Source: Leptospiraceae bacterium
Lineage (GTDB): Bacteria > Spirochaetota > Leptospiria > Leptospirales > Leptonemataceae
Reading direction: 5' to 3'
Length of the DNA stretch: 64,000 nucleotides
Assembly: GCA_026418015.1 (NCBI GenBank)
Contig: JAOACE010000013.1
Coordinates: forward strand, 248,001-312,000
Positions within the stretch are counted from its first letter, which is position 1. Every line of letters begins with the position of its first letter. Below are positions 2,189 to 28,996 of this stretch, piece by piece. The notes beneath the pieces were generated by a model that was not told the origin of the DNA, did not search any database, and saw nothing but the letters and a program-made list of their open reading frames with translations. The translations under genes and the position numbers were made by a program.

Positions 2189-3922
2189 TTAGGTTTGATG
2201 AGATATTTTTAATATTAAAGTTGTTAAAGTTTCGAATAAGTGATTTGGATGATCAAGAATCTTATAATGATTTTGTCCAAACATCAAAGGTAGATAATAT
2301 TTTGCTTCTTTTTCTAATGCAATGCCGAAAAAGTGTATTTGATTTTTTCTTCCTTCTCTTATCGCTTGTTGAATGTCGTATATACCATATTTTCCTTCGT
2401 ACTTATCGTAATCGTTAGGTTTTCCATCCGATAAAAGAATAATCCATTTTTGCGCATAAGAAAATTGATTTAGCAAAGAATTCGCATGCCTAATTGCAGC
2501 ACCAATTCTTGTATAACCTTGTGGTTGAATAGCACCAATTTTTTTAAAAGCATTATCCCATGGTTCTTTAAAATCTTTGATCAAATTAAAATAAATTTGA
2601 TTTCTCGTAATAGAATAAAAACCAGCAATACTAATATAAATGGGAATATCTTTTAATACATCTCCCAAAACAATCAATGCTTCTTTTTCTAAATCTATAA
2701 TGCGATGATTTTCTACATATCCATCTGTTGACAAAGATTGATCGAGCAACAATACAATAGAATAATTGGTGTTTTTTAAACGTTTATTTTGATAAATTCT
2801 TTCGTCTGGTGTTCTTTTGGAAGAAAGATCACAAAAATAATCGACATAAGAATCATAATCTACATCAATACCATCAAATTGTTTATTTATTATAGTAATT
2901 TTATTATAAAAATTATTTATTATTTTTTTTAATTTATGAATATCATTTTTATATTTATTGATTGTTTTTAGATAAAAATTTTCGTTCATTTCTTTAAAAA
3001 ACTTAGGGTATACTTTTACATAATTCTTATTGTATTTTCTTTTTTTTTGATCCCACTCATCATAATAGATAAAATAATCATCGTTTAGATTTTGATCCGA
3101 AACTTCTCCCAAATAACCACTCAGAGAAAATTCTGTTTTATAGATAGAATGGACTTTTTCTGTGGAACGAATCATAAATTGATGTTTGATTTCTTTTAAT
3201 GCTTCCTCATGTTCTTTTAATTCATCTTCTCCATCAAGGTTTCTCCAATTGCCTAAAAACTCCTCGATGGTTTCGATCTTTTCGAAGTTATGCATTAAAG
3301 TATATTCTTGAATTTTTTCTTTATTTTCTTCGATCAATTCTATATTATCAACATTAAGAGAACGATGGATTTCTGTTTGAATATTTCTTTCTAATGGATG
3401 ATTATCAATCGTCGGAGAATTTGCTTTTATATGGATCATTGTTTTAGGATATAATAATCCACTTACGTAGAGTAAATCTTGATCCGAAAGAATAGAAGAT
3501 ATCGATTTCCATATTTTTTGGGATTCGGGATATTCTAGAAAAACATTTTTTAATACAAAAGGGAAAAACTGCAAAGATAATTCCGTATTTTTTTTAAAAT
3601 TGATGTTTTCTTTTAAAAACAAATTGTTTTTTAGAATTTCTGACATATATAAAGTTTTAAACAGATAAAACTGAACATTTAAATCTTTTTCCGAAAAAAA
3701 CGAAATCTTTTCTGGATAGTAGAACAAAAATCCACAACATCCTCCGTATGGGTTTAAACCATTTACAGCTATTTCTATTTCGTATCCTGTTGTTACGCGA
3801 ACCCAAAGTTGAATTGTATCTTTTAAAGATTCAAAGTATACTGTATATGGAGGTTCCTTCTTTTGTTTGAATTTACTCCATTGATTGTATACAAACTGAA
3901 ATATTTTCTGATCAAGTTCCAT
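2189..3922 (-). CDS. norD: NorD-like von Willebrand factor A protein
   Basis: NorD works with the ATPase NorQ to mature the nitric oxide reductase NorBC, probably by helping insert the non-haem iron. The C-terminal ~200 residues are a VWA domain with a MIDAS metal site: DQSLS in the first strand (LLLDQSLSTDG), then GYTRIGAAIRH and LLSDGKPNDYD. The N-terminal ~380 residues are the acidic, poorly conserved NorD region. The ATG at 3922 starts one base after the norQ stop codon and is preferred; an in-frame ATG at 3940 would add six residues and overlap norQ by 17 bases. Neither has a strong ribosome-binding sequence, which fits translational coupling. Last gene of norCBQD. Confidence 0.85.
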   Translation of the reverse strand: MELDQKIFQFVYNQWSKFKQKKEPPYTVYFESLKDTIQLWVRVTTGYEIEIAVNGLNPYGGCCGFLFYYPEKISFFSEKDLNVQFYLFKTLYMSEILKNNLFLKENINFKKNTELSLQFFPFVLKNVFLEYPESQKIWKSISSILSDQDLLYVSGLLYPKTMIHIKANSPTIDNHPLERNIQTEIHRSLNVDNIELIEENKEKIQEYTLMHNFEKIETIEEFLGNWRNLDGEDELKEHEEALKEIKHQFMIRSTEKVHSIYKTEFSLSGYLGEVSDQNLNDDYFIYYDEWDQKKRKYNKNYVKVYPKFFKEMNENFYLKTINKYKNDIHKLKKIINNFYNKITIINKQFDGIDVDYDSYVDYFCDLSSKRTPDERIYQNKRLKNTNYSIVLLLDQSLSTDGYVENHRIIDLEKEALIVLGDVLKDIPIYISIAGFYSITRNQIYFNLIKDFKEPWDNAFKKIGAIQPQGYTRIGAAIRHANSLLNQFSYAQKWIILLSDGKPNDYDKYEGKYGIYDIQQAIREGRKNQIHFFGIALEKEAKYYLPLMFGQNHYKILDHPNHLFETLTTLILKISHQT

Positions 3923-3923
3923 T

Positions 3924-4712
3924 TTAGAAAAATAATGCAACGATATCTTTTAAATTCTTTAATATTTCGGGATCATCAGTTAGTGGATTCAAAATTCCTA
4001 CTTCGCAAGCTAATCGCGGTGGCAATCCATCACCAATCAATTTTGCAGTATGAACAAGCAACCGGGTAGAAACTGTTTCTACCAATCCTAATTCCTGTAG
4101 ATTTCTTACCTTATTTGCGAACAAAACCAATCTTTTAGCATCATCTTCTTTAATTTTATGTCGAACTTCGTTTAAGATAATTTCTATTTCTATATCTTGG
4201 TTAGGATAATTAAACTGAAAAGAAACAAATCGCTGTTTGGTTGATGGTTTAATTTCTTTCCCTAAGCCTTGATAGCCAGGATTATAAGAAGCAATCAGCA
4301 TGAATTCTGGACTAGCAATCAATTCTTCGTTGGTTTTATCAATATACAAGGTTCTTCTATAATCGGTCAAAGAGTGAATTGCTACCAACACATCTGGACG
4401 AGCTTCTGCAATTTCGTCTATATAAATCCATGAATTCTCTCGCACACTTCTTGTTAATGGACCATCTAACCAAACGGTTTCTGCACCTTTAATAACAAAA
4501 CGCCCAATTAAATCAATAGCAGATGTTTCTTCGTGACAACTAACGGTGATCAACTTTTTGTTAAATTTTTCTGCCATAAATTCAACAAACCGGGATTTTC
4601 CACAACCCGTAGGTCCCTTTAATAACAGAGGAAGTTGATTGTTATAACAATATTCAAAAACTTCAACTTCCTTTCCTATAACGCGATAATAAGGTAATGT
4701 TTTTGTAGTCAT
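3924..4712 (-). CDS. norQ: MoxR-type AAA+ ATPase NorQ
   Basis: A 262-residue ATPase of the CbbQ/NirQ/NorQ branch of MoxR AAA+ proteins. Walker A is GPTGCGKS at residues 33-40; Walker B is WIYIDEI near residue 95; a sensor motif (LIASYNPGYQG) follows. It remodels the NorBC complex with the VWA partner NorD encoded immediately downstream. The segment RSVRENSWIYIDEIAEARPDV is typical of the NorQ/CbbQ group. It lies 55 bases downstream of norB in the same orientation, so it is probably co-transcribed. Function is secure from both sequence and operon position. Confidence 0.92.
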   Translation of the reverse strand: MTTKTLPYYRVIGKEVEVFEYCYNNQLPLLLKGPTGCGKSRFVEFMAEKFNKKLITVSCHEETSAIDLIGRFVIKGAETVWLDGPLTRSVRENSWIYIDEIAEARPDVLVAIHSLTDYRRTLYIDKTNEELIASPEFMLIASYNPGYQGLGKEIKPSTKQRFVSFQFNYPNQDIEIEIILNEVRHKIKEDDAKRLVLFANKVRNLQELGLVETVSTRLLVHTAKLIGDGLPPRLACEVGILNPLTDDPEILKNLKDIVALFF

Positions 4713-25209: not shown

Positions 25210-27099
25210 CTACCAAATATATTTATCTGCATCTTCTCTTCGATTATGTCCATCTAATACATGGAATCGTCGAATTCTTGCTAATTTTTTCTGGTTCAAT
25301 ATCGAAATTGGGATGTAAACAATCTTTTGTCCAAATCGCGTAGCAAAATAATTCATCTTTTTAGTAGGTGGTTTGTCTGCAACATAAACAATCGTATTTT
25401 TAACATTATAAATGATTGCTGCTGCCAACAATTTTTCTTTTGCAGTTCGAAAATTACGAAATTCATAATCCTCCCAAATGTAAGATAGTCTACCGGGTGG
25501 ATAGGATAATAAAAATCCTCCATAGATACATCGCGCTATACCAGGTCCTACAATATTTTCTTCTGGACTAGTTGCATAAAATGCCATATCTCCTTCTTGA
25601 TCATGCTCTCCCCACCAGACGCTCTTCCAGAAATACTTTTCTTCATCGTTACTAAAAATGACAACAATGTTGCCAGCATCCCAATTGCTTTTTAATAATT
25701 CTTTAACATAAATTGTGTTTTTATAATAGTTGCGAATCGTCTCTCTGTAATCAATACCATCATACAAACTCGAAGTAAAAGGGAAGCTCTTCGATTCTAA
25801 CGATTTAACCAAAGACAACGCTTTTTTTCTTAGATAATTACCATATTCTTCTAAGATGATGTCCTCTGGTGGATAAGAACACATTCCATAGTTATCCCAC
25901 AGCTCTCTCCATTGTCCAGGATATTGCTCTTTGTGGATTTTAGATTTTATTTCTTTTACCATCTTTGTATGAGGTTTATAAAGCTTTGTTCGGAATCGAA
26001 CAATTTCTGAATCTAAACCCAATTCTTCTAAAGAAAGCGTTAATTCCGGGAAAGGAGATGATTCTTTTTCTATGTTCATCAACTTTTCGTAAAAAATTTT
26101 CGCGAAATTATCATTTACAAATCCTTTCGCAGCATGAATCAAAAATAACGGGATAGGAATTAATTTTTTGTGTAAAATACTTAAATTTCGCGCGAATTGA
26201 AAAAAATATTTTTCTTTTTGAGGAGGAACAATTTCTCCCGATTGATTTTCGTATTCATTCTTCGTTAATCTATAAACATTGCGTTGAAGTTGAACTCTAT
26301 CGAAATACTTCCAACTTCTTGGTTCGTTGCGAAATTTATTCCACAAGTTATTATAATAACCTGGTTGAAACAAAATTTCTGGAGAATTTTCAGAAAGAGA
26401 ATATATCTCTACTTTTAATTTATCCAAATCAAACTGAGCTTGGTTTTGTTTTAATTGAAACTCAAAAGAATCTTTTAACTCTTCTAATTTTTTGGTTGGC
26501 TGTTGTATAAAATACTCAATTTGATGAAAATGTTTTATACCACATACCAGTAAGATGTTTTTATTAGGATACTCTTCTTGTAATTTTTTTAACTCTAAGG
26601 ACATGTAAACTTCTCTGTAAAGATCGATAGGATGCGGAACCATACTTTGTGATTTTTTTAATAAATCTAACAACTCTTTAACAGAGATATAATGAAGACT
26701 ATAAGTATCGGGAAATTCATCAAAATATCTATATAAGCTTATTAAGTTCGCGTTTATAGGTGGATTATCTATATAATAAAGAGAGATTTGCTGTTCATAA
26801 CAATCTCGGATTGCTTCTACGATAGGTTCTAATGGTTCTAAAACAAGATAACCTTTAAAATCTGCTTCGATTTGTAATACAGGATAAGATTGAATAAATG
26901 GTAAAACTTTATCTAAATATTGTTCTAAATAAAAAGGTAGTTCAACCGCTACAATATCAGGTGGATTATCAAAAAAGTGTTTTTTTAGAAGAAGTGTAAA
27001 TTCTAACGAACCATGAACAATGGGTAAAACTTTAATATTAGGAGTAATATTAACAGCTTGATCTACCAAATTGAGTATTTTACTGTTTGATGTTATCAT
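25210..27099 (-). CDS. TraB/DUF5682-like N-domain fused to an unknown C-terminal domain
   Basis: 629 residues, no signal or membrane helix. Residues 22-200 resemble the TraB/PrgY/ChaN-like fold: KVLPIVHGSLEF with His29-Gly30, VAVELP at 51-55, and LLVCGIKHFHQI at 183-194, where related proteins have a conserved Gly-His. Residues 390-629 hold dense conserved-looking motifs I cannot match to a family: PGQW 394-397, CSYPPED 407-413, YDGIDYRET 446-454, WWGEHDQEGDMAFYAT 495-510, GPGIARC 518-524, YPPGR 533-537. The concentration of His, Asp, Glu and Trp suggests an enzyme. It begins one base after the stop of a MoxR-type ATPase gene, so the two are expected to work together. The family call for the N-domain is tentative. 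Confidence 0.6.
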   Translation of the reverse strand: MITSNSKILNLVDQAVNITPNIKVLPIVHGSLEFTLLLKKHFFDNPPDIVAVELPFYLEQYLDKVLPFIQSYPVLQIEADFKGYLVLEPLEPIVEAIRDCYEQQISLYYIDNPPINANLISLYRYFDEFPDTYSLHYISVKELLDLLKKSQSMVPHPIDLYREVYMSLELKKLQEEYPNKNILLVCGIKHFHQIEYFIQQPTKKLEELKDSFEFQLKQNQAQFDLDKLKVEIYSLSENSPEILFQPGYYNNLWNKFRNEPRSWKYFDRVQLQRNVYRLTKNEYENQSGEIVPPQKEKYFFQFARNLSILHKKLIPIPLFLIHAAKGFVNDNFAKIFYEKLMNIEKESSPFPELTLSLEELGLDSEIVRFRTKLYKPHTKMVKEIKSKIHKEQYPGQWRELWDNYGMCSYPPEDIILEEYGNYLRKKALSLVKSLESKSFPFTSSLYDGIDYRETIRNYYKNTIYVKELLKSNWDAGNIVVIFSNDEEKYFWKSVWWGEHDQEGDMAFYATSPEENIVGPGIARCIYGGFLLSYPPGRLSYIWEDYEFRNFRTAKEKLLAAAIIYNVKNTIVYVADKPPTKKMNYFATRFGQKIVYIPISILNQKKLARIRRFHVLDGHNRREDADKYIW

Positions 27100-27100
27100 A

Positions 27101-27958
27101 CTAATCTAAGTATCTTAATGCTTCGTCTCCTAATATATTCTGTACTGCAATATGCATCAACTCTATCAATTGTTTTTCTTTAAGCTTTTGATTTTTTTTG
27201 TTCAAATCCAAGTAGTTTTTTTGATATGCAAGTTTTAATATTAATCGTGTAATATTAATTCCATCCCTTATAGAGAAAGGTTCATCTTCGAAATGAGCTC
27301 TTTGCAAAAATTTTACAACATAATTAATCACTTCGGGTGGAGCAAAAGGTATGTTGGCTGTTAAAATTTCTGCTTCTTCGTCGGCATCTGCAAAATCTAT
27401 GTAGATAGAAGGTTGAAGCCTACTTTGAATATATTCTGGTACTTCGAAAGTAGAAGCATCTTCGTTCATCGTTGTTACAAAGCGAAAATCATCGTGCGCT
27501 TTAATTTTTATACCTAGTATTATGGACTCTATGTACCTACGGTGATCAAGCAACGGCGCAAGAGAAGCCCAGGATTTTTCTCCCATTCTATTGCCTTCGT
27601 CTAAAACTGCTACACCACCTTTAATCATTGCAGTAACAATTCCCGACGCAACATATTTGATTTTTCCCTCGGAAGAGATTACAGGTGTTATAAGCAAATC
27701 TTCTGGTCTTGTATCCATCGTCGCCTGAAATATCCAAAAAGGTTTTTGCATTTCCATCGCAACAGCACAGGCCAAGGTGGTTTTTCCTACCCCTGGCTTA
27801 CCAATCAACCGAGGATTTAATGGTAAATCGTTTGGGTGTACTTTTAGCCAAGAAGCTTTCAGTTGATCTTTGACAAAATTGTTTCCCACCCATTTTACAT
27901 CAATATTATCTGGTGGGGTTAACTCTATCTCTACACCTTCAATGATAATTTTTTCCAT
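27101..27958 (-). CDS. MoxR-type AAA+ ATPase (AAA_5)
   Basis: 285 residues with Walker A GKPGVGKTT at 53-61, Walker B GVAVLDE at 115-121, and sensor region VTTMNEDA followed by an arginine-containing IQSRLQP (sensor/arginine finger region). MoxR proteins are chaperone-like ATPases that usually act with a VWA-domain protein; none is encoded here, and the partner gene immediately downstream encodes a TraB-like/unknown-domain protein instead. It is clearly distinct from NorQ at 3924-4712. Upstream, TTGATA (27997-27992) lies 39 bases from the ATG with AATATT 17 bases further on. Confidence 0.88.
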   Translation of the reverse strand: MEKIIIEGVEIELTPPDNIDVKWVGNNFVKDQLKASWLKVHPNDLPLNPRLIGKPGVGKTTLACAVAMEMQKPFWIFQATMDTRPEDLLITPVISSEGKIKYVASGIVTAMIKGGVAVLDEGNRMGEKSWASLAPLLDHRRYIESIILGIKIKAHDDFRFVTTMNEDASTFEVPEYIQSRLQPSIYIDFADADEEAEILTANIPFAPPEVINYVVKFLQRAHFEDEPFSIRDGINITRLILKLAYQKNYLDLNKKNQKLKEKQLIELMHIAVQNILGDEALRYLD

Positions 27959-28069: not shown

Positions 28070-28996
28070 ATGAAAAGATTTGTAAGTTTTCTTTTATTTT
28101 TTTTAAGTTTAACATTATTTGGTCAAAATCCTCCCATTAGAGAAACTACAACAGAACAGCCAAAAGAAAAAGGCGATATAATCAAAATACAAGATTATTT
28201 TCCTGTTAGCATGGAAGATCCGAAAATTTCTGTTACCGACGTTTCTGTGGATAGAAGATTTTCTCCCGATGGTAAAGGAGAAATTTTAGATATTTTTTTT
28301 AACATCGATAATAATACAAGCGAAAGAATTGATTTATTTGTATGGGTAATCGCATACTACGAAACCGATGCAGTAGAAAAAGAAGAAAGAAGGATTGTTC
28401 CTTATCCTACTTGGAGGGTTTACGATCCAGATAAAAGAACTTATATAACAAGATTTATTAAGATTACACCAAAAGATATTCCTATTGATAAAATCTGGAA
28501 TCCAGAAGATCCAGACTATCAAAAATATCATAATGTCATCAAGAGAATGCGAAATGTTGTAGGGAACCTTAAAGTAATTGGCGATGTATACCCACCAGTT
28601 TGGAAATACGTAAGCTATATTATGAGATATCCTACGCAAGGTGTTCCTACAACAATGTACGGTGATTTAGGACCAACGCCAGATAAGCTTTTGTTTACTA
28701 ACTTTATTCCTCCAACGCCGGAAGAAAAACGAACAAAGATATTTAAACATATTCCAGATCATACCTTTACTATTAACTATAACAGACGAAGAACAATTTT
28801 TCGAAGCCATCATTATTCAGATTATAGAGCAGATTATTATTTTTTTAACACATTTCGTATCCTGATTTTTGATGCTAACAAAGCAAAACAATTCGAAGAA
28901 CAAGCTAATAGAGAACTAAAACAAGGGGAAAAACCCATCGATGCATTGATGTATCATAGAATATTTTTTATAAACAGAGAAATGAAGATTCGATAA
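28070..28996 (+). CDS. secreted protein of unknown function
   Basis: 308 residues beginning with a signal peptide (MKRFVSFLLFFLSLTLFG, cleavage near residue 19), so it is exported to the periplasm or beyond. Mature part is rich in Tyr, Pro, Arg and Asp with no cysteine. It has a beta-sandwich-like start (VSVDRRFSPDGKGEILDIFFNIDN), then Pro-rich, Tyr-rich segments; I recognise no family. A good ribosome-binding sequence (TTAAGGAG) lies 8 bases before the ATG, in contrast to its leaderless neighbours. Followed by a hairpin at 29001-29018. Confidence 0.75.
   Translation: MKRFVSFLLFFLSLTLFGQNPPIRETTTEQPKEKGDIIKIQDYFPVSMEDPKISVTDVSVDRRFSPDGKGEILDIFFNIDNNTSERIDLFVWVIAYYETDAVEKEERRIVPYPTWRVYDPDKRTYITRFIKITPKDIPIDKIWNPEDPDYQKYHNVIKRMRNVVGNLKVIGDVYPPVWKYVSYIMRYPTQGVPTTMYGDLGPTPDKLLFTNFIPPTPEEKRTKIFKHIPDHTFTINYNRRRTIFRSHHYSDYRADYYFFNTFRILIFDANKAKQFEEQANRELKQGEKPIDALMYHRIFFINREMKIR

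Follow-up and report, generated by a model that had tools for sequence, protein, structure and literature searches.

We asked whether a MoxR-type ATPase whose neighboring gene does not encode a VWA protein belongs to a system of its own. MoxR ATPases form seven subfamilies, YehL among them, and a VWA protein generally accompanies them (PMC3893208). The window analyzed here, a stretch of 64,000 nucleotides from a Leptospiraceae bacterium, has one such arrangement, NorQ (3924-4712) with NorD (2189-3940), as a reading made from the sequence alone had recognized. The same sequence-only reading pointed to a second MoxR-type ATPase followed one base later by a 629-residue protein, and these open reading frames were confirmed. 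Both genes are on the minus strand, with the ATPase gene first (Table 1). In relatives, the junction between the genes is a 4-bp overlap (G001, G003, and G009) or a short gap. The related genome of Leptospiraceae bacterium KatS3mg129 has the pair as well, with a partner 81% identical and an ATPase 91% identical to those in the window. Two other genes were seen at these loci. Upstream of the ATPase gene lies a divergently transcribed gene of 308 codons (window positions 28070-28996), without a Pfam match, which is kept beside the pair in several genomes of family f1 (L002, L047, and L051). In two genomes, a third gene of about 260 codons, whose family was not recognized, lies just downstream of the partner gene (L048, 8490-9266; L049, 8241-9023), overlapping it by 4 bp in L048.

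Table 1. Features of the ATPase and partner genes, in window coordinates
Feature	Residues	Position	Strand	Basis or remark
MoxR-type AAA+ ATPase	285 aa	27101..27958	-	Pfam matches, invariant motifs
Walker A, GKPGVGKTT	53-61	27776..27802	-	Sequence, invariant columns
Walker B, AVLDE	117-121	27596..27610	-	D120 and E121 invariant
Gene junction, TAG-t-ATG		27097..27103	-	One base separates stop (27103-27101) from start (27099-27097)
Partner protein	629 aa	25210..27099	-	ORF, family alignment
N-domain, probable TIKI/TraB/EreA-ChaN fold	~14-215	26455..27060	-	hhalign, structural matches, profile
Middle region, mostly helical	216-380	25960..26454	-	Partly aligned to DUF5682 (hhalign to residue 331)
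C-domain	~381-629	25213..25959	-	Best conserved part of partner
Motif DGIDYRET	447-454	25738..25761	-	D447, G448, D450, R452, E453, and T454 invariant in alignment
Motif WWGEHDQEGDMAFYAT	495-510	25570..25617	-	W495, E498, and D504 invariant
Motif GPGIARC	518-524	25528..25548	-	G518, G520, and I521 invariant

The ATPase matched the Pfam families AAA_5 (E = 4e-18) and AAA_3 (E = 1e-6), both over cut-off. Its Walker A, Walker B, and sensor-1 residues were invariant across 12 aligned members, with relatives 55 to 91% identical. With an intact AAA+ core of the AAA_5/AAA_3 type, the protein belongs to the MoxR AAA+ family. It did not group with YehL: the clade of this ATPase was separate from the YehL clade with support of 99/98 and 100/99, in a tree that has long branches and in which the deeper order between the two clades is not resolved, and BLAST comparison of the ATPase with the YehL clade gave an E value no better than 0.006. 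The best NCBIfam match was GvpN (E = 1e-7), far below cut-off, and the best PHROG was phrog_249, "porphyrin biosynthesis" (E = 1e-20), which we take to be cyanophage CobS-like. Because of this last match, a role in metal insertion is possible and is weighed below.

We then looked at whether the two genes keep company elsewhere. Across 393 spirochaete genomes, the ATPase was found in 51, the partner in 50, and both in 50. The partner counts are of homologues covering the protein, some of them split across contig ends, and comprise 49 genomes and one very divergent case (G057). Every partner-carrying genome had the ATPase (50/50), and the only genome with an ATPase and no partner (G179) is a draft that is 85% complete and in about 450 contigs. 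Fisher's exact test for this co-occurrence gave a p value of about 8e-63, a calculation that ignores the relatedness of the genomes. The pair spans six spirochaete families, and five genomes of family f1 have neither gene. Full-length partner homologues (26 to 81% identical) are known from Spirochaetota and Chlamydiota. The genes are adjacent, and often overlapping, in family f1, in one f18 genome, and in one divergent f16 genome; they are also adjacent on a plasmid of the chlamydial Neochlamydia sp. S13, the only match in a plasmid search, and on an IMG/VR contig. A phage search returned no match. The genes are unlinked in the genomes examined from f14, f7, and f44; their neighbors there differ between lineages, and each gene is still present once. 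The trees of the ATPase and of the partner recover matching main clades. Thus, the pairing is far beyond chance, and the pair is real and old. Co-occurrence, adjacency, persistence when unlinked, and matching tree clades are the strongest evidence that the two proteins act together, and we are confident that they are a conserved VWA-less MoxR pair acting as a unit. The suggestion that this MoxR-type ATPase has a dedicated, conserved non-VWA partner was therefore borne out (50 of 51 ATPase and of 50 partner genomes), and the adjacency of the genes is not peculiar to the genome in which it was first seen.

Several loci depart from this pattern. The pair of G057 (L043, 9315-11813) is very divergent, with an ATPase only 27% identical and a partner that lacks the majority of the conserved positions in the two domains. 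In two f14 genomes, the partner gene is broken by TAG codons and the ATPase gene is intact: one TAG is present in L101 (G188), and in the other genome (G162:C1:258073-259918) the partner gene is in two pieces with several TAG codons. Where it is unlinked, the partner gene can lie directly 3' of a class A penicillin-binding protein gene (Transgly plus Transpeptidase), as in L032 (6237-8639) and relatives; this linkage was seen in the examined f14 genomes of genus g36 and not in the two other f14 genera seen. Two IMG/VR contigs have the partner at their edge (L065, 1-4583; L066, 125-1957). L065 also has the ATPase, and a tyrosine-recombinase-like gene comes next. The genes on these two contigs could be either host DNA flanking a prophage or cargo.

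Ternary conflict systems of the MoxR-vWA type are known (PMC7159879), and homologues at two IMG/VR contig edges and on one plasmid would fit a role in conflict or phage defence, with the motor releasing a TIKI-type effector. Against the PADLOC models of known anti-phage systems, the partner had no match and the ATPase had only weak generic AAA matches. The pair also does not look like a vWA-MoxR-VMAP system, having no VWA gene near and no VMAP-type Pfam hit. Defence genes are not consistent neighbors, the C-domain shows conservation, not diversification, and a single copy per genome together with congruent trees is typical of a housekeeping gene. We consider a conflict module very unlikely.

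We searched for VWA genes with a profile built from seven VWA proteins, which recovered all seven control genes, NorD included. The search detected no VWA gene closer than about 8 kb, either to the pair in the window or at any other locus scanned for the pair or the partner (about 30 loci). Thus, the usual though not strictly defining feature of MoxR systems, partnership with a VWA gene, is missing beside this pair, as had been noticed from the sequence. That the pair is self-contained, as the same reading proposed, was not established, since each of the nine genomes checked has 4 to 11 VWA matches elsewhere. One of these proteins could act in trans, in which case this would be an ordinary MoxR-VWA system with its third gene scattered. 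Scattering is known here, because the two genes of the pair lie apart in f14, f7, and f44, and single VWA genes occur at distances of about 6 kb (G093, measured to the ATPase gene) and about 11 kb (G008, measured to the pair). However, several of the VWA genes in the nine genomes adjoin other MoxR genes of the same genomes, and the profile that recovered every control found none near any scanned locus. Therefore, we think it improbable that a VWA protein supplied in trans completes the pair.

Next, we considered what the partner is. Searched against Pfam, the partner from the window gave weak hits only. Across 17 family members, DUF5682 was the Pfam family with the most member matches (four, best E = 0.00049), and DUF5694 and TraB_PrgY_gumN also appeared. 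Comparison by hhalign of the partner with eight DUF5682 proteins, including YehM, gave a probability of 98 and an E value of 3e-13 over residues ~15 to 331 (~295 columns). Along its full length, the partner scored 9.9 bits against DUF5682, where 26 are needed. By this profile alignment, the N-terminal half of the partner is homologous to DUF5682 (E. coli YehM), and we do not file the protein as a DUF5682 member. The family profile also matches spirochaete proteins of ~400 residues at model positions ~14 to 195; the four of these that were examined are TraB_PrgY_gumN proteins (E = 8e-26 to 3e-36), and a fifth match, of 847 residues, is a DUF5682 protein. The middle region has three invariant columns only.

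The predicted model of the partner is of moderate confidence in the N-domain only. Structural matches to the N-domain model had Z scores from 11.6 to 6.2, the best being a Tetrahymena complex IV subunit (11.6), and named TIKI/Ere-type structures stood at ranks 4 to 12. These further matches included HopBA1 (7.4), EreC (7.3), PMT (7.3), RRSP (7.0), and 3b55 (6.3), where RRSP is what we take 6a7h, listed as a bacterial toxin, to be. HopBA1, PMT, 3b55, and ChaN are TIKI-superfamily structures that resemble RRSP (PMC6254334). Several of the Z values are individually in the range of chance matches, and the result carries weight because a single superfamily occupies the top of the list. Profile and structural matches together thus support the TraB/ChaN-like N-domain that had been read from the sequence, and the domain very probably has the TIKI/TraB/EreA-ChaN fold. 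The partner shares with TIKI-superfamily proteins this fold, the TraB profile hits, and an H-E-R-H pocket. It differs from them in adding a middle region and a C-domain that are absent there and in being tied to an AAA+ motor.

Four pocket residues that are the likely catalytic positions, H29, E53, R162, and H190, are invariant in 17/17 aligned partner members. Catalysis by EreC is proposed to proceed via H50, E78, H289, and R261 (PMC7979712). Counterparts of the His-Glu pair and the second His (EreC H50, E78, and H289) are present in the partner as H29, E53, and H190, with equivalence assigned by order, motif, and DUF5682 alignment. Unlike in EreC and RRSP, the second catalytic Glu (EreC E47 and RRSP E3900) is not at its usual place, and an invariant proline occupies position -3 relative to H29; invariant E95 or E163 might stand in for it. 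The fold alone is no proof of hydrolysis, because ChaN has the same fold and binds haem (PMC7979712) and PMT has it without the catalytic residues (PMC6254334 and PMC7979712). In addition, the homologue on L065 has A, P, I, and S in place of H29, E53, R162, and H190 and keeps the C-domain motifs. Hydrolysis may therefore not be essential, and this homologue suggests that the C-domain, not hydrolysis, is the constant function. We regard the N-domain as a putative hydrolase that is about equally likely to be active or not.

The haem binding of ChaN bears on the metal-insertion role raised by the PHROG and sub-cut-off GvpN matches of the ATPase. If the pair were a metal- or haem-insertion chaperone, the ATPase would act like NorQ, CbbQ, or CobS, and the partner would serve as a carrier, or as a subunit of chelatase type, with its TIKI-fold domain binding the metal or haem and passing it on to a client enzyme. 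NorQ and CoxD do mature metalloenzymes (PMC3893208). However, no metalloenzyme gene is consistently beside the pair, and the conserved pocket fits the hydrolase pattern. We therefore judge an insertion chaperone unlikely.

The C-domain is the best conserved part of the partner, with 32/249 columns invariant and a mean pairwise identity of 0.475 versus 0.326 for the N-domain. The conserved-looking motifs first noticed there are present and mostly invariant in the family alignment; one viral-contig homologue has E in place of D447. The C-domain had no family match in Pfam or the PDB sequence set, and searches of the whole partner against NCBIfam and PHROGs gave no C-domain family either. Thus, the view that this domain fits no described family held. 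Three candidates were rejected. The C-domain shows no detectable relation to VWA domains (hhalign probability 0.6%, E = 0.09), and it does not match the C-terminal half of DUF5682 (probability 0.3%). A Pfam hit to Slo-like_RCK (residues 557 to 610, E = 0.003) was below cut-off, occurred in two members only, and was taken to reflect general Rossmann-like likeness. The AlphaFold2 model of the domain, made from four sequences, had a pLDDT of 45, and Foldseek and VIA-align found no match to it (best Z = 3.4); because the model is poor, this null result says little about the fold.

How new is the pair? It resembles NorQ/NorD, RavA/ViaA, and other MoxR-VWA pairs in joining a MoxR-type ATPase to one dedicated partner gene, and it differs from them in that the partner is not a VWA protein. 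The nearest known system is YehL-YehM-YehP(-YehQ), where a MoxR gene is also directly followed by a gene for a protein with the homologous N-terminal half. YehM/DUF5682 and the partner share H, E, D, R, M, and G-x-x-H positions. DUF5682 genes sit in MoxR-DUF5682-VWA operons of the yehL-yehM-yehP type, often with SWIM, DUF5691, or DUF4132 genes, and the DUF5682 copies of Methylosinus and Streptomyces have no adjoining gene annotated as VWA. In contrast to YehL-YehM-YehP, the present pair is without an adjacent VWA gene, its ATPase is in another clade, and no SWIM or DUF5691 neighbors were recognized; the C-terminal half of the partner shows no detectable relation to that of DUF5682. The literature searched did not mention DUF5682 and gave no function for the present pair or for the YehL-YehM-YehP operon. 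Two or more of the names yehL, yehM, yehP, and yehQ stand together in only two of its papers, which to judge by their titles are genome-resource reports, with each name used once. The proposal that this is a candidate undescribed system thus stands in part. The dedicated non-VWA partner and its unplaced C-domain bear it out; the homology of the N-terminal half to DUF5682/YehM means that the pair is not wholly undescribed and is instead related or analogous to a known, uncharacterized system, from which it differs in having no adjacent VWA gene.

We propose that the two proteins would form a physical complex. The ATPase would assemble into a MoxR-type AAA+ ring, and the C-domain would be the main interface of the partner with this ring, either replacing the VWA adaptor or making its role unnecessary. 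ATP hydrolysis would reshape the partner itself or a client that the partner holds. The His-Glu-His pocket of the N-domain would then be able to bind, and probably hydrolyze, a substrate with an ester or amide linkage at the proper time. We give an even chance to the pair being such a two-component machine, a VWA-less relative or analogue of E. coli YehL-YehM(-YehP) working by this mechanism. That the C-domain is an adaptor in place of VWA is speculative and somewhat doubtful. We would put forward just as tentatively that a MoxR subfamily has swapped its VWA adaptor for a novel domain joined to a hydrolase of the TIKI type, with the ring directly powering or gating a TIKI protease or esterase.

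A conserved, one-to-one, non-VWA partner would demonstrate that a MoxR ring is able to work through another kind of adaptor. Since both systems have a TIKI-fold protein next to the motor, the pair gives a handle on E. coli YehL-YehM-YehP, and, with its minimum of two genes, it should lend itself more readily to purification and testing than the longer operons do.
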